Assembly: GCA_019400425.1 (NCBI GenBank)
Contig: JAFREE010000229.1
Span: 1 to 29,427, forward strand
DNA length: 29,427 nt
Reading direction: 5' to 3'
Origin: Hymenochaete sp. R1
Lineage: Eukaryota; Basidiomycota; Agaricomycetes; Hymenochaetales; Hymenochaetaceae
Both the position numbers and the translations under genes were made by a program. The notes beneath the pieces are model-generated. The model saw only the letters and a program-made list of their open reading frames with translations. It was not told the origin of the DNA and searched no databases. Of the stretch, positions 1 to 14,767 are shown in pieces; positions within the stretch are counted from its first letter, which is position 1, and every line of letters starts with the position of its first letter.

Positions 1-689
1 TCTTGTAACCTCAGGTCGCTGTCACGTGACCCTGATTTGTCAGACTCCTGATCAACGTCTTGATCGGACTCTAACACATAATCCTCGACCCTGTTTATTC
101 AAAGTCGTGTTAATCTTGCTTTACTATGCTACATGCCACACGGCACTGTTGAAGACACAACTACCTGCTTGTATGATAGAACACCTCACATATCTGTTTT
201 AAAAAAGAAAGTTGTTGAAAGAAAAAGGACCGGACATAAAGGAGACGTAGGGTGATCAGCGGCTCGGAGAGGCATGAAAACAAAAGGTTAGGAATCTGAG
301 GCAAAGTGGGTTAATGAGACAAAGGAAACAGATGGTTGGAGAGTTCGGGAAAAAGACAAACACCACATGAAGAAAACACCCGAAAATATAAATGGCGTTA
401 ACGGAAATAACACCGGCAGATAGACACATAGAAGAAAAGAATGCTATCAGATGGGATACTTTACATAAGTATTCAAGAATCCGACCGAAGAAAGGAGAAC
501 ACATACATGTTCATGGGCCTCGTATCGTGTCAATCATTCCGAGAAAGACAGACAGAAAGAAAGTTAAGTACAAGACGCAACACAAACAGCGCGGAAACAG
601 GTATGGTAGACGTGGAATAGTCGCTACACTTATATGTTAAAGAGATTAAGAGCTGGGCGTACGAATATCCTAGAAGGGCCTCCGCGCCC
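1..689. other. no gene seen; 3' flank of the transcription-factor pseudogene
   Basis: I see no coding exon, RNA gene or repeat that I can support here. On the minus strand the stretch is T-rich, as expected of sequence downstream of the gene ending at 690. Short open frames on both strands are low in complexity and resemble no family I know. Confidence 0.5.
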
Positions 690-3391
690 TTAGCTGAAAA
701 TAACGCCAGAGTCTCCGCTAGAATCTCCATCCCGGTCGTCATCCAGCCTGGAAAAGTTACGTTTAAAAAGGGGAGCGAAAAGGGAGAGCTTATATCAGAA
801 CAGATCTCTAGCCTATAACGAAAAGCGATGATGACTCACAGATAATTCCCTTCGATCTCTGAGAGAAACGAGAGGTAGTCTCCTGTAGTACACGTTGCCG
901 TATGAATAGGAAGATCAGAAGGTACCGTCGATGAGGCAATATACAAGGATAGACATGGGCACATACCGCCGGCGCAGACTGCATATCTGCGTTGCGCACG
1001 ACGTCCAGTAGTGTTGATGCCACGAAGTTCACCTTATTCGCGACACTTAGGTTGTTCATAGCGATGGACATCACGGACTGGATGGGAATCGGGGGTAGAA
1101 CCTTTGGAAGATCACATGCTACGGCCTCACGGCCTTCAGCAATCTGCTGTTCGAGTCCGCGCGTCCGCAAAACCACGTAGCTGTGATTCAAGATCGTCTC
1201 GGTATTGTTCAAGGGCAAATCTTACGACTTGCTGAACGAACAGAGAAGTCATAGGCCAGTGACATATCTTTCAAAACCCACAAGAAAAGACGTGAAAAAG
1301 AGGTTGGAAAGCAGCAAGGGAAACTACCCAAGCTGGGAAAAATGTTCCCAAAACGAGTGAAGCGGGAACGATTTCTCACCTGAGTGATATACAAGTTCGC
1401 CTGCAACACACTTAAAGCATTCGAAGCATTCGCACGTCTGGCATTAGGATTCTCGATTCTCAAAAAAGTCCCTAACTTCCGTGTACGGTGCTTCTCAGAA
1501 ACCAGCTTCCCCTACCTCCGCTGGCATATGCGATACCTGCAGACCCGCATTCTTCAAGCGGAGAGGCGCAGGCGCATGCGAGAGCACAACCATAACCCAA
1601 CCGTGTAGTAAGCGAAGTTCTTCAAGTCGGGCAGTCGCAAAATGTCCCTGTAGAGGAGAACATTTATTCACTCGGATGCGGACCTGGATAAAAGAGCAAA
1701 AACGCGCAAAATGTAGCTACCTCCCCACCCAACGACGGTCTTCCCATGTGGCCGGGGAAGTATTCCAATGGGCGTGTTACTATAAACAGTAACATGTAAA
1801 CCTACACGATCCAGGACAAACATCGGCATAGCTTCGGTTTACTGGGCCAGAAAAAGTAAAAGGATGTACTACCCGTCGTCTACTTTTTTTGGGGGGGGAA
1901 GACCAGTGTGCTGCGTGCTGCAATGTGCAATCTTTGTCTCGAAGACAAATGGGCAACCCAATAGGATCGACATCGATTTGTCTGCGCCAAATAATAACCA
2001 GAAGTTCTGTCCCCTTATTTCGCATTCAAGAGGATCAAGGCCTTCATAGGATGACTCTTCGTGCATATGCAACGTTACTGCAATATGTGCTGTTTCTCCG
2101 AAAGACGCATGGGACGTAGCGTCATGCCCTTCACAGAAGTGATACACATTGTCGCTGTACATAGAAATCAACCGAGTGCGAGTGATGAGATGTCAGAAGT
2201 CGTCTGGTTCCCTCAAAAACAAGCGATCTTTAGGTAGAAAAAAAACTCACAAGTAGCGAATTACGACGTGGATGGATTGAGGAGGGTCGTATGGCGTGAC
2301 AGAAATGTAATGGCTTGATTCGTAGCAAATCTGAGCTAGCTTGCGTACTGCTTGACGTTCCATGGGCAAGTACGAGCGAGGGATCTGTACAAGCGTAGAT
2401 GCGCAAGTTGACATAACCAGTGCAAAGAAAAGGGAATCCCGTTACTCCCGCCTGGAGTGCAGGTCGGCCATGAAAGGCAGTTTGTGCACACAAGGTGTGA
2501 GCAGGCAGACGAAGTCGAAGAATAAAGAGATGATGTGCATAATTGTATCGCGGGGAGCAACATCCTTCAGTCTGTGGGGACGGTAATAGCACGATAAGGG
2601 CGGGAGAGCGTTCGGGGAAGGCACTCGCAATCGTGATTGCTGTTTGGAAAATGCTGACCAGCTGTACACTGACAGAGGGTACGTGCTAAAAGAGTATGCG
2701 GAAGTAGGCACAGTGTTACTTCCAACAGATCTTGGAGCTTCCAAGGGCGGGCCCTTGCATGAATCGGACAACCGCCGAGTGAGACTTGGCATGGACGACG
2801 TAGAATGCATGCCAGGATAGTGTGAATGGAACGTAACGGCGATAATGAGGTATCAAGAGGGTGGGATGAGGGCAGATGGGGAGTTCGCGTTGCTGCTGTT
2901 GATCCCTACTTCAAGAGGCGACGTTGGGTTCTGTGAAGGAATGATTGGTGGTGATGATGGGCTCTCAACGGTCCCTCCGTTCACGGATGGCGTTGATGGG
3001 CAATGATAGCTCTCTATCTTGGCCGTTAAATACATTATGAGACGAAGCTGCAACTGCTGCGGCTTCTTGGAGATGCCGCAAGTACCTGTAACATTCATGA
3101 CGAACTTGAATGTCCAAATCAAAGTGGATGGGAGGGAGGCAAGCTGAGCTGAATTCACAAAAAGCCCGCTCTTCTTAGGTGGCATTCGAATATACAACGA
3201 ATCTCAATGGCAAAGCAGTGCTTGCCTGTAAGACGTCTGAGAGTCGTCCTGACTCGGATTCTGTCTTGCACACCGCACCTTTCATGTTCGACACGTGCCG
3301 CAATCTAGAAAATGAAAAGAAAAGGCACAATTCAGCATGCACGCGTGCGACACGTACTTTGGGACTGGCGCCTGTTGTTGGAGAAAGCCAT
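690..3391 (-). pseudogene. Zn2Cys6 fungal-specific transcription factor, degraded
   Basis: Ancestral role: a nuclear DNA-binding regulator with an N-terminal Zn(II)2Cys6 cluster and a fungal_trans (middle homology) domain. The ATG at 3389-3391 opens a small exon (MAFSNNRRQSQ). A GTACGT...TTCTAG intron follows, then the first half-cluster C-G-T-C-R-T-stop-K-V-R-C at 3270-3302. This keeps CX2CX6C spacing, but has TGA at 3282-3284 where the family has Arg. The middle domain is clear at about 1955-2102 (HEESSYEGLDP, FWLLFGADKSMSILLG). Later pieces are GHFATARLEELRLLHG (about 1590-1670), ANASNALSVLQANLYITQ (ending 1380) and, after a 148-nt intron, QVVRFALEQYRDDLESQL from 1231. Then come VNFVASTLLDVV, SFLSEIEGNYL and a spliced end LDDDRDGDSSGD with stop 690-692. 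Successive blocks lie in different frames (breaks near 1960 and 1170, for example), so this is a non-processed pseudogene. The family is certain to me; exact exon ends are not. Confidence 0.88.
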
Positions 3392-3472
3392 TTGGGAACA
3401 AAGTGGATATATCAGTAGAGTGTTGACATAAAAGAAGATACCGGAAGATGGTGGTCAAGGAAAGAGAGAGGG

Positions 3473-3478
3473 CTTATA
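3473..3478 (-). promoter_or_regulatory. possible TATA box of the transcription-factor pseudogene
   Basis: TATAAG on the minus strand lies about 85 bp upstream of the ATG at 3391 and is followed by a CT-rich run, a common fungal core-promoter layout. It sits only about 25 bp past the stop codon that ends the retrotransposon frame, so the transposon remnant directly abuts this promoter. Position is the only support. Confidence 0.3.
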
Positions 3479-3502
3479 CTCACCCGGGACTCATTAGTAC
3501 CC

Positions 3503-5204
3503 TCATGCCTGAATATCTTTCAACATAGCCAACCACTTCTTGTCCATCAGCACTATTTCCACTACGACAACCTTTGCAGTTGCAGTGGCCCCACTCGCTT
3601 GAAGATCGTCCAGAAACAACTTACAGCGCTGTGCAGAGCACATCTGGAAGCGCGGTAGCAGCAATGCATTCGGCCTCTGCTGTCGAGGTTGCCACCATAG
3701 TTTGTTTCTTGCTCCTCCATGCCACCGCTCCCCCATTGATCATGACGACATACCCGGTAGTCGATTTCCCATCTAAGTAGTTCCCGCCCCAATCTGAATC
3801 GGAGAAGGCCACTGGAGGGGTTGATGTGAATTGAATATTGGTATCCTCTTCGTTCCTGAGCCTGTACGTCAATCCGAGTTCGCGTGTGCCCTTCAGATAG
3901 CGAATAACCCGCTTTATTGCTGTTATGTGAGAGGCCTGCGGTTTAGTGATGTAGCGGGAAAGAGCATTCACCGCGAACGCAATGTCAGGTCGGGCAACAG
4001 TACTTAGCCAAATGAGGCTTCCAATTGCTTTAGCATATGGAAACTTGACGTCGATTTCGCTCTCGTCCGCTGCGAAGTTCCTGAGAGCACCTGCTTCCAT
4101 TGGCGTGAGTGCGATGTGTGCGTCCTCTAGACCAAAGTCTTAAGAAGACCATCCACCTTCTGCGAAACAGAAACCTTCATCCAGCCTTTCTTCTTGTTCC
4201 GTTCCATCAGCGTGCCGAGTACACTTGTTCTTGTCTGAAGATCCTTAACCTTACAGACGAAGCTCTTCTTCGAATCCTCAACAAACGTCTCCTCCACCTT
4301 CATCTTTATCCCGCCTATTTCCACACCAAGACCGTCGTCGACATAGAAGGTGACGAGTACCAGGCGAGTATGCCCCCCCTCGACCACGGTCTTCTTAAAC
4401 AACATCGGAGCTGAGGAGAGTTGTTCGTATCCAAGCTTTCGCATTTGCTCCGTCAAATGAATGCGAAAATTGCGCGGAGCCTGTTTCAGGCCATAAAGGC
4501 TTTTACGCAGAACACCAACGGGGTTAGTGAATCCCCGAGGACGAAAGAATGGAGGCAGAGCGGTTACCACGTCCGGTTGATCAATGTCCGCATTGAGAAA
4601 CGCAGTCGCGATGTCAAAGGCGTGAATGGATGCATTGGGAGTAGCAGCAAAGCTGGTGACAAGTTTGTAGACGCTGTAATCACCGGCGAGCGCATACGTG
4701 TCTTGAAAATCCCGGCCTTCAACCTGAAGATCCCCGCGAATGACCCAACGGGCTTTAAAAGCCCAACCACCCTCAGGAGTCTGCTTCTTGGATAAGAGGA
4801 GCATGCCCGGGATGGCATGATCTGAGGGACGTCGTTCACGAAATGTGAAGACATCCATATGCTGAAACGTGGTGAACTCTTTAATGATTGCGCACACCCA
4901 TTCATCACGATCCGGACCAGCAACAGCCTCCCTGATGTTCCGCGCTACCTTCATGGACTCCGTGTCACGATCCACAGTGAGTTCGACCTCTGGCTCATGC
5001 GCCAGAAACACCTCAATGAAGTTAGTTATGATGTTCGCCTCCGCGGTGTCAAGGAGCTCACAGAAATGAGCATGGAAACCGGCGCGAGCTTTAGCTGTTA
5101 GCTGAAGAGTTCGTGAAGAGCGACGAGGCTGCGGAGACAAGACCTGCGGTTCATTGGAGTGGTCACCGTCAAGTTCAGAGGACTGAGCAGAAGACTCCGG
5201 AGCG
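3503..5204 (-). pseudogene. copia reverse transcriptase and RNase H, frameshifted
   Basis: This part would have encoded the polymerase that copies element RNA to cDNA. It is open from the nested element's edge at 5204 to 4127. It shows the copia RT hallmarks AFDIATAFLNADID (catalytic Asp), SLYGLKQAPRNFR and the YVDD catalytic pair at 4334-4345. One base is lost or gained near 4130, after which another frame continues with PYAKAIGSLIWLSTVARPDI and YLKGTRELGL. RNase H follows with SDSDWGGNYLDGKSTTGY and SKKQTMVATSTAEAECIA. A further shift near 3640 leads to a short tail ending at TGA 3503-3505. The usual second half of copia RNase H (the block around the conserved DNQ and KHID motifs) cannot be seen, so the C terminus looks deleted. 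Confidence 0.93.
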
Positions 5205-5213
5205 GTTTGTAGC
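5205..5213 (+). repeat. 9-bp target-site duplication, left copy
   Basis: GTTTGTAGC directly flanks the left inverted repeat and is repeated exactly at 8333-8341 outside the right one. Nine base pairs is the characteristic duplication length of Mutator-like elements. Joining the flanks across a single copy continues one copia reading frame, which supports this as the original empty site. Confidence 0.85.
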
Positions 5214-5255
5214 AGTTGTGAACTTTTCGCACTGAATTGGTGTCCGAAAAAGGAA
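5214..5255 (+). repeat. terminal inverted repeat, left
   Basis: Pairs with 8291-8332 in inverted orientation. The outer 11 bases are imperfect, with mismatches at positions 3, 5, 7 and 11. Positions 12-32 are identical, position 33 differs, and 34-42 match. Similarity ends abruptly inward. Confidence 0.9.
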
Positions 5256-5480
5256 GTACGCGCACGTGACCCGCTTGATATGGAAAGTAGAGTTGCTGTT
5301 TTAATTCAGATACCGAAGATCAAGCCTGCCATATATGGAGTGTACACATAGATAGGTTAAGACCAAAGATAGCTAACTATTCACACGAAAATCGGCAGGT
5401 TTTTTTTGTTAAGTCAAAAATGAGATTGCTACGAAAACGACATAGATATCAATAAAAACTACACTATGGGTGAAATTACA

Positions 5481-5935
5481 TCATGTTTGTTTGTTAAGAA
5501 CAGCATTTGGGTCATAAGAAATAAAAGAAAATGAGGAGGAAGGAACAGAAGTTTGAGGTGGGGAGGCAAGCGGCATAAAAGGAGAATGGGAGGAAGGCGG
5601 ATTTGGGGATGAAACGGAAGGTGGCGACTTCCGTTTTCGAGTGTTGCAGATAGGAATTGACGGGCTGGCAGGCTGCTGAGGCTGGTTACCATCTGATGCA
5701 CACATGACATTGGACGAGTTGTTCGAACTTTTCCCCAGACCCAGTCGAATGCGGATGACCAGCGGGTTCTTGTTATTTGCGGGGACGACGGATACTGTTC
5801 CACCCTCCACCCGGGACTGTTGGAGAAGGGGAGGTGACAACTGTTGGTCGGGCTGCTGCTGGTCTCGTTGTGCGAGATGGTTGGTCATGAAGTCAGGTAC
5901 CTGAAGAAGTGTCAGCTTATCCGTCAGGTGTGGCA
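5481..5935 (-). pseudogene. terminal-exon-like fragment of an unrecognised gene inside the TIR element
   Basis: A frame stays open from a plausible splice acceptor (pyrimidine-rich tract, then CAG at about 5936) to a stop at 5481. The predicted protein starts LPHLTDKLTLLQVPDF and continues into a Gln/Pro/Ser-rich, low-complexity tail with a short basic patch (NTRKRKSPPS). I do not recognise a family. It lies directly downstream of the DBF4-like stop at 6170. It may be an alternative last exon, the neighbouring gene of the donor locus, or a second captured gene. Codon content and length argue for real coding ancestry. Confidence 0.4.
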
Positions 5936-6169
5936 GCTGCCAGATTAAAAACCGAGAGTAAAAAAAAGGAGGAAGAAATCAGTCGCATCGAGGTCATAGG
6001 AAGATTATTAGACGTGGCGATAGGGATAGGAACGTAATGTGGTGGAAACGACACACGAGCAGGAAATGGCAGTAAATACGAAAGAGAAACCGTCGAGTCA
6101 TAGGAGACCACCGCATAATATCTGCAGCGTCATCTTTGATTGTCTTGGGATTGCAAGCAACCGACATAT

Positions 6170-7260
6170 CACACTTCGTCAGGAACATCACTATCCAGGT
6201 CAACGTAGCGGATATTCACGTCTTCATCAGCCTCGACACACGATCCGTTACGAGCACCACTGAGCATCCTTTCCCGTTGCATCGTCCTTTGCATCTCTAA
6301 TTGTTTCTTGGACTCTTCGACCTCAGCCTTGGTCTTCCTGCATAAACGGCCGTGGGCAATGTCGAGTTGCAGAAAATTTGCCTCCGTACCGGCAAACTTC
6401 TGGTGTCTACGACCACGGATATGCTAATGAAATATCAGTGGGTCGAAACATTCGGAGGTGTAGGAACCATGTACTACTTTGAAGTCCTCGAATTTCTGAC
6501 GGCAACTTTCACAGTAACCAGGCTTTGACTTTTCGTCCCTTTTTGGCATCTTCAAAGTATTTGTGCTCTTACACTTACGCAGCAAGGTCTGCCGATCAGG
6601 AACCTCTGGTGGAGGCATCATCACAGAAGAGGCCGAAGCCTTGCTGAAGCTCGTGCTGCGACTTGGTTCTTTGTCGCCGACACGCCTGGAGGTCAAGACT
6701 TCTGGCAACGGCACGCGAGAGAGGCCTCGACTTTCGAGTCCAAGACCACTGATAGTAGAACTACCTGCGCCCATGGTCGAGGTGGTGCCGAAAGCGGTTG
6801 AAGCTATGCTCATGCTGTTCCCAGACGCTGCGATGTATGCGTTGGAATCAAAGCCCGAAGCTCCATTGTTATCAATGAAATTCGTGTTCGTGTAGTTTTC
6901 ATAGGCGTTATCATTGAAGTTTCGGTGGAGATTAGAAAGGGAAACGCAACGACGGAGGTCATTCTGTTTCCGCTGTTGCATTTGGCGCACTTTCAACTTC
7001 TTCGCAGCCGCAGCACGTTCTTCTTCACGTTCCTTCTTTGCTCTCTCCATCTTTTCGCGCCGACGCTCCTCTTTGATATTGTACCCGATGAACGGTCCTC
7101 GTGAGAGACAGAGAGAGGGTGACAATAAGGGACAGTCCAAGCGCCCCTCTCCTGACCATCAGGGGTCCCAAATACTCGTGAGCAGCAATGGTCGCCAGTT
7201 CCTGCCTGATCCCGTTTGGTTGTGGTTCCAAATCGCTTCTCCGACTCAAGAAGACGCGGA
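6170..7260 (-). pseudogene. DBF4/Dfp1-like regulator of the Cdc7 replication kinase, captured and frameshifted
   Basis: DBF4 binds and activates the Cdc7 kinase, which fires replication origins by phosphorylating MCM. Seen in order: RLLESEKRFGTTTKRD (about 7210-7257); RQELATIAAHEY in a second frame (about 7168-7205); a motif-M-like GAWTVPYCHP in a third (7116-7145); RGPFIGYNIKEERRREK opening a long frame to 6475. That frame is rich in Ser/Asn/Gly and ends in the DBF zinc finger. The finger is split by a 51-nt intron (6424-6474, GTACAT...CATTAG). Splicing gives C-E-S-C, nine residues, then H-I-R-G-R-R-H-Q-K-F-A, i.e. CX2CX9HX5H. The protein stops at 6170-6172 (DLDSDVPDEV). At least two indels break motif M, and family members as I know them have extra residues between GTTTKRD and RQELA. 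The N-terminal BRCT-like region is not recognisable. It keeps its intron, so it was copied as DNA. Confidence 0.86.
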
Positions 7261-7470
7261 CGCTCTCAAGCGTAGACGGCAGACGTCCACGCGTCCTGTG
7301 CGGTTGGAGACACGGGTGTCACGCTGGCTTGGGGATAGCGGGTGGACGGCGTAGCCGTAGACGATGAGCGACAGAGGTTCCGAGACACGCCCTCACGCTG
7401 GTTAGCCGTTGACGGTAGCATGTAGGATTGTGTGGACGGAGGCCCGACGGCAGAGCGTCAGGGGCAGGCA
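7261..7470 (-). other. Ser/Thr/Pro-rich linker remnant, repetitive
   Basis: Between the exon-like pieces and the DBF4-like block the minus strand reads as a Ser/Thr/Pro-rich, disordered-looking stretch (for example PSTRYPQASVTPVSPTAQD), broken by stops. ACGCTGGTTA occurs twice, with related ACGCTGGCTT and GACGGCAG words nearby. It is probably the decayed linker upstream of DBF4 motif M. Confidence 0.3.
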
Positions 7471-7601
7471 GAGGAAGATGACGCTGGTTACCAACTTCTT
7501 TGACTTGAAATATGATTCTACACCATCAGATATGTCGTGTGCACATCGAGAAGACCTCCAATTAACTGGACTGCATCCTCGGAGGCTCGGACTCGTCGTC
7601 G

Positions 7602-8309
7602 TCAAAGGTAAAATTCGCCGAGCCTCAGCAGGTTTTCATAGGAATATTTCCCGCGTCTCACATTCATGTTCGGGATGAGCTCTCCGACGCCGAGGGCCAT
7701 CTCGCAGACGTTGCCCAGCAGGTCAATGGCGCCAACAAGGAGCGCGGACGGATGGCTCGAACCCACTCTCCTTTCGATCTGGGTCGGAGGGCAGGTGCAG
7801 CGAAGCATCCGCGAGGTGCAGGTGCGTGAATACCATCGTTCACATTGGGAGACGTCGCAAAGGAAGAAACCGCAACACGAGTCTGAATCCTGAAAGCAGT
7901 AGGATCGAGGCCTCTGGGATGGCACGGACACCGGTGGGCAGCATTCCCCAGATGGTTGTCACAGTGTAAAGGGAGGGAGGGAGAAGAAAGAAAGAGAACA
8001 GAGTTGAAAGACTTCAAGAGTACTCACCTGGGCATTTTGAGTCGTTTTTCTGACCTGTGTTCTGCTCCGGACTCCAGCACTGTACGGATCGTCCTCATAC
8101 TGCCCCTTTTGGCCGGGTTTTCTGGGAGGGAGGAGCCCATTGTCTGTCTTGCGATCCTTTGTACTTCTCGCCCAAACACCACTTGCTGCTTTGAATTCAG
8201 ATGCATAGCCCTGGCGTGCGGCTATATGATTTGATGGAGGAAGACCGGTGGCATTGGTGTCCGGGTTGAGGATGCTAATTATTTTTGCATTTCCTTTTTT
8301 GGACACCAA
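7602..8309 (-). other. exon-like open pieces of unknown origin inside the TIR element
   Basis: A frame beginning just inside the right inverted repeat runs to about 8031 and ends at a strong donor (CCCAG|GTGAGTACTC). A pyrimidine-rich stretch follows, then further open frames from about 7930 to 7602 (one contains AIDLLGNVCEMALGVGELIP). The first piece includes GQKGQYEDDPYSAGVRSRTQ. I recognise no domain. These could be decayed N-terminal exons of the DBF4 copy or fragments of another captured gene. The good splice donor is the main reason to list them. Confidence 0.3.
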
Positions 8310-8332
8310 TTCAGTGCGAAATGTTTAGACCT
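8291..8332 (-). repeat. terminal inverted repeat, right
   Basis: Inverted partner of 5214-5255 (37 of 42 positions). Reading inward from 8332 on the minus strand it starts AGGTCTAAAC and then enters the shared core. Confidence 0.9.
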
Positions 8333-8341
8333 GTTTGTAGC
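8333..8341 (+). repeat. 9-bp target-site duplication, right copy
   Basis: GTTTGTAGC, identical to 5205-5213, lies immediately outside the right inverted repeat. Confidence 0.85.
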
Positions 8342-9449
8342 GGCGAAGAGACAAGAGGAGGGGATTGCGAGACAAGTACTAGTACTAGTACTAGTATAGT
8401 ACTGTGGACGGAGGAGAATCTGAGCCACGCGAAAGCACGTGCACATCGCGAACGGGCAGAAGCTGGTTGCGATCGACGAGCACGGAGCAGAAGGTAACCC
8501 GCGTTCTCTTGATAACCAACTATCCGACCAACCACCGTGCGCGATTTCAACTTGGAACGTTTTTCCGGAGGGACGACAGCATGAACTTGCAACCCAAAAG
8601 GCAAGAAATACGAGATGGGAGGAACGCGACTAAACATGGCCTCATGGCCTGGAAGGGACACATCGACGGATTGGAAGAGATGGAGCTGACACGACAGCAG
8701 GCGCGAATAAAGTGGTGAGCAGCTTCTTCCCAGTATGAGGGCGGAAGGGAGGAGTCTGCAAGTGGCGTGCGAACAGCATCTTGAAGAGTCCGGTTGAAGC
8801 GCTCAGAGTATCCATTCATCTGGTGCTCTCGCGGAACCGTCGTGCGATGAACGATGCCTCGTTCTGCATTCCATTGCCGCATGTGAGTGTTCACAAACCC
8901 CGTCCCATTATTGGTTTGCAATGATTTGACCCGGTTGCCAGTCTGAGTCCTCACAAAGCTAATAACTGACCAACAGCGCAAAACAATCAAAGTATCCTTG
9001 CTGCGCAATGGATAGAGCCAGCAGAAATCCAAAACCCGATCAAGGAAAATCAGCGCAAGAACATTCCGATGAACCGAGGGCCGGTCAAAGAACACGATGT
9101 CAGCGTGAATGAGATCTCCGACGGCCACGGTGGCATTCGAGTGCGAAAAATGCGGGGAGGACACAGCTTTACCAGACATACAGACCGCGCATGACAGTTC
9201 AGATGAATTGGGGCGTATGGTCACCCCAGAGACTCGATTGAGCGTGACTGCTTTCCGCAGTTTGAACGAAGAAATGTGCGAAGCAGCTTGGTGAAGAACA
9301 TCAAGACTGATGAACTTCGGCTGGGCAAGGAGTGCGTTCAAGCGAGGAATCATAACCCGCAGAGAATGAAGCCCGGAGACACCCATGGAACTAACGGCAA
9401 AGAGTACGCCATGCTTGTGTAGCGTGAGAGAGTCGTCAGAGTCAGTCAA
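8342..9449 (-). pseudogene. copia integrase, catalytically altered and frameshifted
   Basis: Ancestral role: inserting element cDNA into the genome. The longest frame (8547-9449) holds the zinc-binding region (H...H then SCAVCMSGK) and a DDE core. Counting from 9449 the core residues are Asp117 (LIHADI), residue 180 and Glu216 (NGYSERFNRT), with x62 and x35 spacing. Residue 180 lies in LQTNNG where copia has TDNG, so the second catalytic Asp is Asn (codon at 8910-8912). After a shift near 8560 the C-terminal part continues (EKRSKLKSRTVVGRIVGYQE) and shifts again near 8500 before meeting the nested element at 8341. The catalytic substitution alone would inactivate it. Confidence 0.93.
8377..8396 (+). 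repeat. ACTAGT microsatellite (three overlapping TACTAGTA units)
   Basis: A 6-bp repeat in the copia integrase/RT linker. The same 8-bp palindrome recurs singly at 17309, 21257, 21363, 23322, 24099 and 24426. Confidence 0.9.
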
Positions 9450-10053
9450 GGTAATGTTCTGTCCTTTGAGTCATCTAACCGCAAACAAATTAGCTGATAG
9501 GCTCGGCACATATATCACATTCCGGAGTTCAATAGCGTTCCAACCGGAGCCGGAGGAAATGTAATATCGAAAAGAGACCGAAAACTCCGGGGCCCCTCTC
9601 GCCCTCCCCTCGTCCCTCATCCCTTCTGACCACCTCGCTTCACTTCGCCTCGTCTCGGAGCGTCCCAGCGTCCCCTAAGCGAACGGACGACCGGACGAAC
9701 GGAAAGAAGCTTAAGGGAAACTAAGCTAAACAGAAGCTGCAGAAGCAGAAACAGAATTCCGAAGGGAGTAGAGATTTGTAGATTGTAGATTCTCGGAAGT
9801 TTTTTTCTTTTCCTTCCAAGTTTCTTTCTTTTCTTTTCTGATAAGCTTACTTCAAAAGTCCTGTTTCCTGTTTTCTTTTCTCCCGCGGACAGAACCAGAT
9901 AGCACGGAGTAGACCGGATGGTTTTTCGCGGCCGTTTGAATCATCTGTACGTGCTCCTTCGGATCAATGAGAAGAGACTGATCATTAACTAAATGACACG
10001 ACGCCCCAGTGTCGCAAATAAAGGACGTGAAGAGGGACGAGCAGGCGCTGTTC
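9450..10053 (-). pseudogene. copia protease, interrupted
   Basis: The aspartic protease that would mature Gag-Pol is split. The catalytic block FICDTGASCHLVND (DTG codons at 10005-10013) is followed by LLIDPKEHVQMIQTAAKNH down to about 9900. The C-terminal part reappears at about 9480-9570 as AIELRNVIYVPSLSANLF, the usual LxNVLYVPxLxxNL element that leads into the integrase zinc domain. A stop or frameshift follows it. The roughly 320 bp between the blocks resemble no protease. Confidence 0.85.
9575..9895. other. CT/purine-biased insert of about 320 bp splitting the protease
   Basis: The plus strand moves from a C-rich pyrimidine tract (around 9590-9680) through a purine-rich segment (9700-9770) to a TTTCTTTTCTTTTC tract (9800-9890). 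The composition differs sharply from the flanking coding remnants. I see no open frame, inverted ends or convincing target duplication. It could be a small non-coding element or an expanded simple-sequence region. Confidence 0.4.
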
Positions 10054-11437
10054 CTAGAGTGCTACGATCTGGTGAGCTTTTCGATTCTTCACTTTTTCAT
10101 TGTGAAGCTGTTTGCGCATAAGGTCAAGTTCGGATAATGGAGAAATATTGGAGGGTGGAACATAGGACTGTGAGGACGGCGGCACAAGCTCTGCAATCTG
10201 TGCGAGAGGCCGCGCATGCCGAGGTCGAGGAGCCCATCCCTGAGGGCGACGATTCACAGCACCACCACCATCCGAATAGCAGTCGGCAAGCAAGTGACTG
10301 TAGTCGGAGCATTTGGAGCAATATTGCTCACGAACTCCGCCTTTGAACCGGCAGTTGTGTGTGGGGTGACGCCCACTGCTGCAATTCGAGCATTTTACAA
10401 CGGTAGCGGTAGTCGACGTAGGCGTAGCAGTAGTAACGGGCACCGTAGGAATGGAATTGACATGAATTGACAGCACCGGAAGCCGGTTTTGACACAGAGC
10501 CTTTGGTAGAGTCCAAGGATGCAAGTTCCCCTCGTCGCACGACAAAACGCGTGAACTCTTCCACAGTTCTTACATCCGACCGATCAGCCTCCAGCCGCAG
10601 AGCCTCATTCTATGCCGTTCGGAAAGAAGTCTTCAGTAAATGAAGAAAATTGAACTCATTCATGCATCCTCCGGTAAGCTCGAACGAAGCCAGGAGGTCA
10701 TGCATACGTGCAATATCAGATCGGATAGAGTCCGATGGAAGCATACTGGCTCCGTATAAATTCCTGGCAGCCGATGCAGAATCGACCGGATGCACGAAAG
10801 CGGAGAAACGGCTGGATATCATACTCCACAGCTTGAAGGCAAATGGACAACGCAGAAACTGAGACGTAAGGGGCCTGTCCATGCTGAACAAAATAAACCC
10901 CCGAAGTTGTTGGTCATCATCCGCTAGACCGAGCCTATCCAGTTGTCCTTCGTGAAAGTCGAATGCTGTCAGATCCTTCCAAGGTTTTCGGCAAAGAGCA
11001 AACTCCATACAGCTCCGCCAGAACTCGAAGTTACTGCCGTCAACTTTCAGTACCTCAGGTGGTTGAGTCAATGCACCGCGCGATGAAGCGGTAGGAGCTA
11101 TCGGAACCGGTGCAGGAACCGGAAAGTATTGGTCCCGATCAGATGTGAATTGAGGCTGATAAGTGGGTGGATGAGGCAAGTCAACAGGATGGCAAAGCTG
11201 AGGAACTGGAGCGTGTACAGGGTCAGGAGCTGCAGGATACGAGCCAGTGACTGGCGGCTGAGGCAATGGCCTACGACTAGATGGTCGAGACGGAAGCAGT
11301 TGAGGAAGTGGCAAACTCTGGTTTACTTCAACATACTGTACCGAACGTCCAGGAGGAGCGTGAAAAACAGGAACCGAAGGCGAGAATTGCGATTGCGGGC
11401 GCGACAAGCTTGGATGATGTGAAGTCGAAGAAAGCAA
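10054..11437 (-). pseudogene. copia gag polyprotein, frameshifted
   Basis: Gag would form the virus-like particle of the retrotransposon. A Pro/Ser/Gln-rich N terminus leads into a capsid-like region (KVDGSNFEFWRSCMEF, then GFILFSMDRPLTSQFL and FKLWSMISSRFSAF) in the frame 10610-11437. Shifts near 10600 and 10470 move it to frames that carry two perfect CX2CX4HX4C nucleocapsid knuckles (CSNCSSGRHPTHNC and CSKCSDYSHLLADC, about 10290-10395). The frame closes at 10054, where the protease follows. I chose the most upstream start-like position as the 5' limit; no primer-binding site or LTR was recognised upstream. Confidence 0.88.
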
Positions 11438-12270
11438 TCATAATGTCGAGTTGTTTTCTCTTCAACTCGACCATCCAGAAATATCCCCTTTATGCGAAAT
11501 GTGAGCATTTATGCAAAGCAGAAAATAAACTTTAATCTAACTTTCTCTCGATGATGCTCGATGACCCATGTGAGGACTCGAAGCACTGCGCATCTGTTCG
11601 GAGTCGGATGGGGATTCTGACTCACAGTGACACCAGTATACGAACAACACTTAAGGCGACTGTAAAGATGAAGAGAGGCAGGCCTCTTTCCTACAATATA
11701 CAGGGTCTTTTCGGTATGTGTCTGCTTTGTATTTGAATAAAAGTCGCTTTTTTTCTCAACTATTTATAGAATTGATCACATATACTCTCCATTTTATGAT
11801 GAAAGTAATTGGGGTAGGCTACCACAAGTCGCAAACATCCCTCAGACTCTCACACCTATGCCCACTCCTCAACACTTTAGATCTGGTAATCTACATCGAT
11901 GCCAAGTTCACGGGAACAGAAGTTATACAGAGGCAAATGGGGTATCTAACTATGGAATTAAAACCATAAATAATAGACCCTGTTTAATAGCGTGTTATTG
12001 GTGGGAAAGAGCTCAGAATACACGGCCAGTAGTTTGTGTGGCTTGCACTGATGATTGCTTACAAAGCACGGCGTCACTCTTCTAGACAACCGAATTCGCA
12101 TCGAGTTTTTCCTCCGACTACCACTATCGCTTCTACCAATTGGCCTCCTTCTCCTCCCCCAGCTCTCTGCTCTACCTTTCTCCCCCCTTCCCTTACAATA
12201 AGTAGGTTCTGTAATCATCTTTTCACCTGCACTTCCACAAACTATTAACTATATATTACTTCATAGTACG
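11438..12270. other. no gene seen; flank of the retrotransposon and promoter side of the F-box gene
   Basis: AT-rich with no coding frame I can support. Any 5' LTR of the copia element should lie here, but I find no second copy in the window. A C/T-rich stretch at 12120-12190, about 80 bp before the F-box ATG, would suit a fungal promoter. Confidence 0.4.
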
Positions 12271-13804
12271 ATGAGAACTCGTAGCGGGCGCAATCTCCAC
12301 CCTCGAGACCCCACTGGCGCTCCTCCCCAATCACCCTCCAATATCCACAATGGCAATATAAATAGGTAAGCTAACACATTTTTCCCCCGATAAGGCTTTT
12401 TAATGTATATTCTTCTGTAGGATAATGGGCACCCCCACCATTCCGACTTCGACGTCTCTCTCTCGCCTTTCGACAGAAATACTCGAGAACATTTTTCTTT
12501 TCGCTCTCCCATCTGATGGATACCCGAGACTGGAAGATTCTCCCAGGAACATATCACAAACTTGTGCGTTTTGGAGGATGATATCTCTCAATCGCAGCCA
12601 ACTCTGGGCCCGACTCAAGGTTGGATTCGAGCCCGAACTTCGCTTAACCCTGAAAGCAGCAAAGGGTCTTGTTTCCTTATGGCTCAACCGGTCAGGCAAC
12701 GCTTTGCTCCACTACAAGATTAAGGTTACACGAAGGAATGCACGTACGTCAGGGAAGCGCGACCTTCTTGCTCTCGCCGATGTTGTTGAGCTACTTTGCG
12801 GGAGTCAAAATCGATGGGTCAACATGTGGTTCGACTTCGACGGATATAACCCCAACTTCAATCGCTTTACAGCAAAGAAACCCCAGAGAGTGATGGAGTT
12901 CCATAACCTAAGTAACCTGGAGAGTTTGGTGCTCGAAAGCACCGGAACGACCACACTCAGCAGTGGAAACAGAATCCTCTGGAAGCAAGATCAACACGCT
13001 CCTTCGGATGTTATTCCTTACATGCACATACCGAATTTCGTTGGTGAGACACCGATAGCTCCCAAGCTCACGAACCTCACCGTACTGCCCACAAGCAACA
13101 GCATGACCGCACGAAAAGACTTGCTCAATGTCTTACAACAATGCCCGAACCTGACAAAGCACGTCATCGATGCGCGAACGACGTCTCCAGGTGATGAAGT
13201 ACCTGACAAATTGGTCATTATGGAACACCTGCGCACACTCACTATGTTCTGCTACAAGCGAGGATGGCTGACGTGCATTCAAGCTCCGAACGTCGAGAGG
13301 CTGGCCGTAATAGGGGATACGTCTTGCTTGTGGATCGACGATGTTCGTGACGATCTCATTGGAGACGTTATATCATTCCTTCAAGTACCGCGACGCCCTG
13401 GGTCCAAAATTACCGAATTCACATTTGCAAACAATATGCACGACAACAGAGGAACGTTAGCTGAGGTACTCAGGCTCCTTCCAGACGTTGTTGTGCTCGG
13501 CTTCCCCGCTGTCTTAACGCTTCCGGATGACTGGCTGAGGGATCTCAAATTGACTCGGGAGGTGGACGGCCGTCAAACAATAGATCTCTGCCCTAAGCTC
13601 CTATGCATAGAAGGAAACGATCTCAATCGTAAGCACGCAAAGAAGTTCTCAGAAGTGGTCCGCATTCGTCACGACCTTGACTGTAGCTTAGATGGGGTGC
13701 TTTTCCGCGTTAGATTCGAAAACATACAGGATAAGTTTCTGAAAGAGAAACAAAAGCACCAGTGGGAAACGAAGGGCTTAACGTTCACAATTGAAGTACG
13801 TTAG
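12271..13804 (+). CDS. F-box domain protein
   Basis: Two exons, 12271-12365 and 12421-13804, joined by a 55-nt intron (GTAAGC...CTGTAG), give 492 residues with no internal stop. The spliced start MRTRSGRNLH is in frame with the long exon; the internal ATG at 12425 would also give an open frame but skips exon 1. An F-box-like motif lies near residues 40-95 (LSRLSTEILENIFLFALP ... ISQTCAFWRMISLNRSQLWARL), matching the agaricomycete pattern LPxEILxxIF...CxxWRxIA...LW. The rest has weak leucine-rich-repeat-like blocks (LTNLTVLPTSN, LRTLTMF), as in many expanded fungal F-box families. Such proteins act as substrate adaptors of SCF ubiquitin ligases. The substrate is unknown. It is one of two intact genes here and the only intact one on the plus strand. 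Confidence 0.87.
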
Positions 13805-14767
13805 TATAATTTCACCTGCTTTCTTATTTATAAATGAGGGGCGCACATTGTTCGTTTGGGACCCATGGTTTCTGGGAGCAGGGACCGACTTTCCCCTTCA
13901 TTCCCTTTCATTTTGTAATGTACTATCTGTGCACCGTTCGTAGTTCATAAAGTAATACAACTTACCAATAATCTGACTGAGTACCCTTGATATATCGATG
14001 GGTTTATTCAACTCAAACCTTGTTGAAATATTTGTATTGTTCGTGAATTATTTCAGAAAATTCACCATACAATTGACTTTCTTCAACCGCATATCGCTAA
14101 AAACGTCTGACTACATCGCTACGAAATACGCCGTAGACAATTACAGCGTCAGTCTTTTCTTTTGCCCCCTTTAGTACGTAATTTGATTTGAGACTTCGTG
14201 AAATCCGTCAAAATAGTCGACATGCTTGACTTCGGTAGAGTAAAGGCTCTCGGTAAGGAATGCAACTTATTTGAACAAGGGGTGGCCCTCTACATATCCC
14301 TCCTAACCCCTATCTCCTGATCAATTCCAACCACCTCTTCTTTGCATAATTAATTTTTCGGGTAAATCGATGAAGTATCTGGAGGAAAGATCGCACTTGC
14401 TTTCGGGAATTATAACCCTAAATACATTTTACAAGATACCGTGAGTATTTAGGTCAGTACTTAGCTCTGCAAGCCTGCGAATAATAGCATACAGTGCCTT
14501 ATGCACAGTATACAGCAATGTGCGACGCGACATGGATGACTAATCAGGCGCTTTTGTCAACCACAATACCACCCCTCATATTACGTATGCATGATGGTAT
14601 GGTTAAACGGTATGACTCAGGAGCACCTCTGCTTTGCACGACATTGCCTCGGTTGTGTATAAATGCTTCCACTACATCTTATTAACCGAATACATCTATC
14701 TCCTTTCTTTTTTTAACTCCCTGTATTGGCATTGATAGGCAAACACATAGTACCTCCTCCTAGTATA
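13805..14767. other. no gene seen; convergent 3' intergenic region
   Basis: AT-rich spacer between the ends of the F-box gene (+) and the orphan gene (-), which converge here. No coding frame, RNA gene or repeat that I can support. Confidence 0.5.

Follow-up and report, generated by a model that had tools for sequence, protein, structure and literature searches.

Positions 5214-8332 of a 29,427-nt stretch of contig JAFREE010000229.1 from Hymenochaete sp. R1 (assembly GCA_019400425.1), which as a whole is called the window here, are occupied by a 3,119-bp element bounded by terminal inverted repeats (TIRs) that sits between the integrase and the reverse transcriptase (RT) parts of a copia element. 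We think that it is very probably a non-autonomous Pack-TYPE TIR DNA transposon, most likely of the Mutator-like element (MULE) class. This assessment is based on paired TIRs that are shared with a family of miniature inverted-repeat transposable elements (MITEs), a target-site duplication (TSD) of 9 bp, the lack of a detected transposase domain, and host-gene fragments in the interior. The comparisons show an interior that is, as judged from its matches, a mosaic of intron-bearing genomic fragments from at least four host genes, including the replication gene DBF4.

Borders of the element and its copia host

The inverted arms at 5213-5255 and 8291-8333 comprise 43 nt each and are 88% complementary. 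After the outer C/G pair is dropped, which is part of the duplication, the TIR proper has 42 bp with 37 identical positions. The left TIR (5214-5255, plus strand) has an end of A type, starting with AGTTGTGAAC-TTTTCGCACTGAATTGGTGTC, and the right TIR (8291-8332, minus strand) an end of B type, starting with AGGTCTAAAC-ATTTCGCACTGAATTGGTGTC; these types are explained with the MITEs below. A comparison of the window with itself recovered the TIR pair with an E-value of 1.8e-8 and gave no other self-match at E<=1e-4. Both borders carry the sequence GTTTGTAGC, at 5205-5213 on the left and at 8333-8341 on the right, as a perfect exact repeat of 9 bp. Nine open reading frames (ORFs) of at least 100 amino acids (aa) overlap the element, one of them (8311-8661) being that of the copia linker, and a Pfam scan of the other eight detected only zf-DBF and no transposase domain. 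A first-pass annotation of this DNA had proposed 42-bp termini with 37 identities, a perfect 9-bp duplication and the absence of a transposase frame, and all three agree with the arm alignment and self-comparison, the exact border repeat and the Pfam scan.

The copia element reads on the minus strand. Its RT frame at 4127-5140 matches RVT_2 with an E-value of 1.3e-27, and its integrase-core frame (rve) at 8547-9449 gives an E-value of 8.9e-7, which with 29.6 bits is slightly below the Pfam cut-off of 32.6. These two matches flank the element, in agreement with the proposed nesting, and the insert lies in the integrase-RT linker. For an empty-site test, 600 bp of each flank were joined with the element and one duplication removed. 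The linker frame is then open across the junction into the RT frame over 353 codons, as far as the joined sequence extends, and in controls with one or two extra bases it stops 12 or 38 codons past the junction; in the occupied site, stops within the element close the frame at either border. The earlier statement that the linker reads through after excision therefore stands for the frame itself but not for its uniqueness, because the two-base control opens another upstream frame of 296 codons into the RT side, which weakens the test somewhat. The empty-site frame is good but not unique evidence for the borders.

The integrase-core ORF ends before the end of the linker, and the linker frame (8342-8802) is not the one used by this ORF, which indicates that this copia copy is damaged besides the insertion and not intact by itself. 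Its long terminal repeats were not located: there is no direct repeat of at least 40 bp in window positions 1-14000, and the self-comparison added none. A short microsatellite of ACTAGT type is found at 8372-8402 in the copia linker, near the insertion point. Positions 12425-13804 of the window hold an open frame of 459 aa that by eye is F-box/leucine-rich-like and has no Pfam match.

MITEs with the same ends

A search of the 27.8-Mb assembly of the same strain with the left end of the element gave 13 places, including the query itself and the right end in the window. They comprise three intact MITEs of 0.55-0.58 kb (577 bp on contig C271, 577 bp on C235 and 545 bp on C230) and six MITE ends that are cut by contig ends. 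The MITEs possess two distinct end decamers, the A-type GGTTGTGAAC and the B-type AGATCTAAAC, each of which precedes a shared core, TTTTCGCACTGAATTGGTGTC. The window element has one end of each type, with AGTTGTGAAC as its A-type and AGGTCTAAAC as its B-type decamer; the core has one mismatch at the right end in the window and at some of the MITE ends. Among the six cut ends, three have one decamer type and three the other. A search with the TIR core, allowing up to three mismatches, gave 15 places, 14 of which are the known ends and one an isolated place with three mismatches on C304.

Both flanks are available for six insertions, of which four have perfect 9-bp TSDs (the window, C271, C96/C166 and C222/C217), one matches at 8/9 positions (C230) and one has a 1-bp indel (C235). 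The perfect duplications at the end of C96 and the start of C166, and at the starts of C222 and C217, indicate two MITE insertions that were split by the assembly; these pairs were picked among nine possible pairings, with a chance expectation of about 3e-5. The MITE ends on C188 and C53 are left without a partner end. The contigs C96 and C166, and likewise C222 and C217 (loci L015, L009, L014 and L013), can be joined in pairs. The first-pass annotation had looked to sister copies with the same termini, and to their duplication lengths, for support, and both could be obtained here: the MITEs and MITE ends are such copies, and their duplications are of 9 bp or close to it.

Beyond the ends, nothing detectable is common to the MITE interiors and the cargo in the window. 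One MITE interior (locus L010, 3280-3350) contains the stretch GGTTCGAGTC, which we take to be similar to a tRNA B box and in which no RNA was confirmed. A tRNA or another RNA in the MITE was rejected, as neither L010 nor the window gave a match at the Rfam gathering score and ARAGORN found no tRNA in L010.

The cargo

From the right end inwards, the cargo consists of an exon-like stretch at 7932-8290, a zinc-finger-like piece, an F-box-like piece of 125 bp, the DOCK piece b, the inverted DOCK piece a, an F-box-like piece of 29 bp, the DBF4 piece, and an exon of an unnamed gene. On the minus strand from 7104 to 6169, the DBF4 piece comprises two exons, together 293 codons long, and a 54-bp GT-AG intron that was kept. 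The first of these exons (6478-7104) has an open frame that starts where motif M ends and extends to the zinc finger, the intron (6424-6477, GTAGTA...CATTAG) lies within the zinc finger, and the last exon (6169-6423) contains the second half of zf-DBF and runs to the stop codon. The identity to P0001, a protein that is encoded on a public contig and has motif M, is 98% over 226 aa, intron read-through counted, and the spliced frame matches PF07535 with 53.5 bits. Named DBF4 relatives among the matches listed come from Volvariella volvacea, Panaeolus cyanescens and Tulasnella calospora, which points to a mushroom-forming basidiomycete as the most likely host organism. In the motif-M region (7105-7253, minus strand) the motif residues are split over different frames with a deletion, and no BRCT domain was matched among the scanned ORFs of the element; for these reasons the DBF4 copy is, as its reading frames indicate, a 3' fragment with a broken motif M and an apparently intact motif C zinc finger.

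The two DOCK pieces lie in opposite orientations, piece a at 7291-7481 on the minus strand (173 of 184 aligned bases, 7 gap columns) and piece b at 7479-7751 on the plus strand (249 of 265 aligned bases, 8 gap columns), and both match C267. The identity as DOCK is supported by a DOCK_N match with an E-value of 1.5e-95 in the adjoining frame. These pieces are flanked by two minus-strand pieces of an F-box-like gene on C315, namely piece 1 at 7253-7281 (26/29) and piece 2 at 7749-7873 (110 of 125 aligned bases, with a 10-base gap). Despite its length of only 29 bp, piece 1 scores 43 against its gene, a value that none of 1000 shuffles reached (maximum 30), and 37 other real segments score at most 24. 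The zinc-finger-like piece at 7883-7931 on the minus strand matches C157 (42/49). The terms F-box-like and zinc-finger-like are labels given by reading the sequences; the C315 frame had no Pfam match. At the left, an exon-like open frame at 5481-5900 on the minus strand (ORF 5481-5888) matches the protein P0096 with 87% aa identity in BLASTP and 91% in tblastn and has, read by eye, an acceptor-like site near 5900. The stretch at 7932-8290, also on the minus strand, is exon-like with a splice-donor-like end by eye; comparisons with the DNA of the own genome, with Pfam and, at E<=1, with 14 protein candidates gave no match for it.

That DNA rather than mRNA was captured is shown by the DBF4 intron and by the start of DOCK piece b, which by eye looks like intron sequence. 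The first-pass description of the interior as an intron-containing copy of a replication gene was correct as far as DBF4 is concerned, and it understated the cargo, which stems from at least four genes. From its sequence the cargo looks like pseudogene material, and no product is claimed for it. Short-homology joins between the pieces were considered and are not used as evidence, since the 3-bp alignment overlaps shrink to two exact shared bases between DOCK a and DOCK b and three between DOCK b and F-box-like piece 2, which is at chance level. Two other cargo junctions contain nine unassigned bases each.

Donors in the own genome were found on three separate contigs, C267, C315 and C157, and these matches show apparent capture from the own genome for the DOCK, F-box-like and zinc-finger-like pieces only. 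A zf-DBF match occurs in the own assembly only inside the element, and the searches with P0001 and P0096 likewise returned the element alone, without a separate donor. A search for the motif-M family gave no match in the own assembly, but its control was silent, too, so that the P0001 protein search carries the point. As a rough check of completeness, an MCM search gave 15 matches on seven contigs. The absence of DBF4 elsewhere is probably due to an assembly gap at the donor locus, perhaps a single locus together with the P0096-like exon. It is extremely improbable that no DBF4 coding sequence other than the transposon-borne 3' part remains in the genome; in that case the fungus would rely, for an essential regulator of replication, on a transposon-borne gene fragment with an intact zinc finger and a broken motif M.

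Divergence of the pieces and order of events

With gaps left out, the identity to the donors is 94% of aligned bases for DOCK, 88-90% for the F-box-like and 86% for the zinc-finger-like pieces; with gaps, as counted by BLAST, it is 91%, 81-90% and 86%, respectively. The 98% of DBF4 refers to amino acids and to P0001, not to a donor in the own genome. Third positions account for 15 of the 22 coding differences in DOCK and for 8 of 15 in the longer F-box-like piece, an excess which indicates that coding constraint was acting while part of the divergence accumulated. Frame-changing indels are present in the captured pieces. Decay similar to repeat-induced point mutation was rejected as the main source of divergence because there are few transitions at donor CpG bases (0/32 in DOCK a, 2/42 in DOCK b, 3/28 and 0/6 in the F-box-like pieces, 0/4 in the zinc-finger-like piece).

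As the identities differ and the DOCK pieces lie between two F-box-like pieces in donor order, the sequences suggest that the F-box-like gene was captured before DOCK, with DBF4 taken up last; a caveat is that the true donors may have been paralogues of the genes on C315 and C157. Of the events that can be traced, the insertion into copia is the latest, and it dates this transposition, not the captures. The earlier conclusion that the nesting places the capture after the copia insertion is thus invalid, because the cargo may have existed before at another site and its pieces differ in their divergence from the donors.

Classification and proposed mechanism

The MULE-like class is our best guess, one that we consider reasonably likely, and does not amount to a membership. 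The TSD of 9 bp lies within the 8-11 bp given for MULEs (PMC6446971). A Helitron would have neither TIR nor TSD, and the element has both. The ends that the element shares with the MITEs imply one transposase. This enzyme would be supplied in trans, recognize the common ends, and cut and paste with a 9-bp stagger. The fragments may have entered round by round, when the repair of double-strand gaps within the element was interrupted. The element would then have inserted into the copia linker, the copia copy being resident by that time.

Several observations weigh against parts of this reading. With 42 bp, the TIRs are short for MULEs, of which fungal examples are listed with TIRs of 22 bp and 51 bp (PMC6446971), and the MULE transposase domain PF10551 had no match in the own assembly, with a control that matched in 3 of 14 genomes. 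An autonomous partner, for which the first-pass annotation had proposed a search with the termini, was not located, as the TIR-core search gave no TIR-bounded candidate in the assembly; this is no proof of absence, because the MITE family breaks the assembly, as seen from the six MITE ends at contig ends. The Mutator-like membership proposed at first is thus compatible with the 9-bp duplications and not established. Moreover, a gene cargo was found in the window element alone, all other copies being MITEs, and nothing among the copies points to an amplification of the cargo. No donor in the assembly was found for DBF4, for the P0096-like exon or for the stretch at 7932-8290. The repair mechanism is not demonstrated, given overlaps of 2 and 3 bp at the closed junctions and the unassigned bases at two others, and the mosaic could have been acquired en bloc.

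The lack of a PF10551 match and the short TIRs would also fit the same Pack-TYPE element being moved by a transposase of another kind, that is Merlin, hAT, KDZ or an undescribed family, which we regard as possible, if rather doubtful. Merlin elements have TSDs of 8-9 bp, and the corresponding IS1016/IS1595-type domain PF12762 had no match in the own assembly either (its control matched in 1 of 14 genomes). The assembly searches for transposase domains covered PF10551 and PF12762. Also in favor of another transposase are hAT families of 597-631 bp in the mushroom Marasmius oreades that share their ends with a transposase-bearing relative (PMC9674265). The TSDs of hAT elements are, however, usually 8 bp (with groups of 5, 6 and 7 bp) and those of Zisupton, a KDZ type, 8 bp (PMC12730594), whereas those of the present family are 9 bp in four of six insertions and near 9 bp in the other two, which favors MULE over hAT and Zisupton. 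Concerning the cargo, it is conceivable but unlikely that the mosaic of DBF4, F-box, DOCK and zinc-finger sequences pre-existed at one host locus, for example as an older mosaic insertion beside DBF4, and entered the element in a single uptake. The original arrangement of the pieces without donors is invisible and could have been of this kind, but the three donors that were found reside on separate contigs, and the F-box-like pieces flank the DOCK pieces in donor order with differing divergences, as successive captures predict.

A capture in a related lineage, followed by introgression or horizontal transfer, appears quite improbable to us. It would account for the missing DBF4 donor and for the predominance of third-position differences from the DOCK donor, as seen between two working genes; yet a donor evolving under constraint after an old capture would yield the same excess, the predominance is less marked in the F-box-like piece, the frame-changing indels point to decay inside the element, and MITEs of the same family reside in this genome. 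An assembly chimera, in which two MITE ends were artificially joined around host sequence, is practically negligible as an explanation. The repeat does break the assembly at six MITE ends, but a perfect 9-bp duplication together with a restored copia linker frame would hardly result from misassembly, and the TIRs in the window have differences of their own and enclose no MITE interior.

Relation to known systems

Pack-MULEs have reportedly been described from plants by Jiang in 2004. Plant Pack-MULE and Pack-TYPE elements are non-autonomous and keep TIRs and TSD, with pieces of one or several host genes in place of the transposase (PMC8903248, PMC13317346), and in all these features the element described here is alike; it differs in its fungal host, in its short TIRs, and in that neither a MULE transposase nor a gene-carrying family was found. 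The Pack-TYPE kind is already known, and it is uncommon in fungi in the literature searched, where the open-access part, as far as its extracts reach, yielded no mushroom Pack-MULE. In plants, TIR elements that capture genes are known to drive gene shuffling, and the fungal TIR cases found are single-gene captures of histone H3 by hAT elements. An element of mushroom type that combines several donors with kept introns and a resident MITE family could serve as a system for testing how and when genes are captured in fungi. In practical terms, gene predictors could mis-annotate the captured copy as the DBF4 of the species.

The hAT-histone H3 transduplications of Pyrenophora and Pseudocercospora (PMC3538342, PMC6710886) are similar in that a fungal DNA transposon bears a copy of a housekeeping gene. 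They carry one gene in tens or hundreds of copies, with an 8-bp TSD in P. fijiensis, whereas the element here has a 9-bp TSD, several donors and one gene-carrying copy found. In addition, the histone H3 of P. fijiensis was captured as a transcript or retrocopy (PMC6710886), in contrast to the kept introns of the present cargo. Helitrons of Pleurotus ostreatus also represent mushroom mobile elements with gene cargo, but they are rolling-circle elements without TSD and are reported not to tend to capture host gene fragments (PMC4289320). Finally, MULE-associated gene families are known from Rhizophagus irregularis, so that a link between MULEs and duplicated genes exists in a fungus; there the high-copy genes adjoin the MULEs (PMC8647823), whereas in Hymenochaete sp. 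R1 a cargo from several donors lies between the TIRs.

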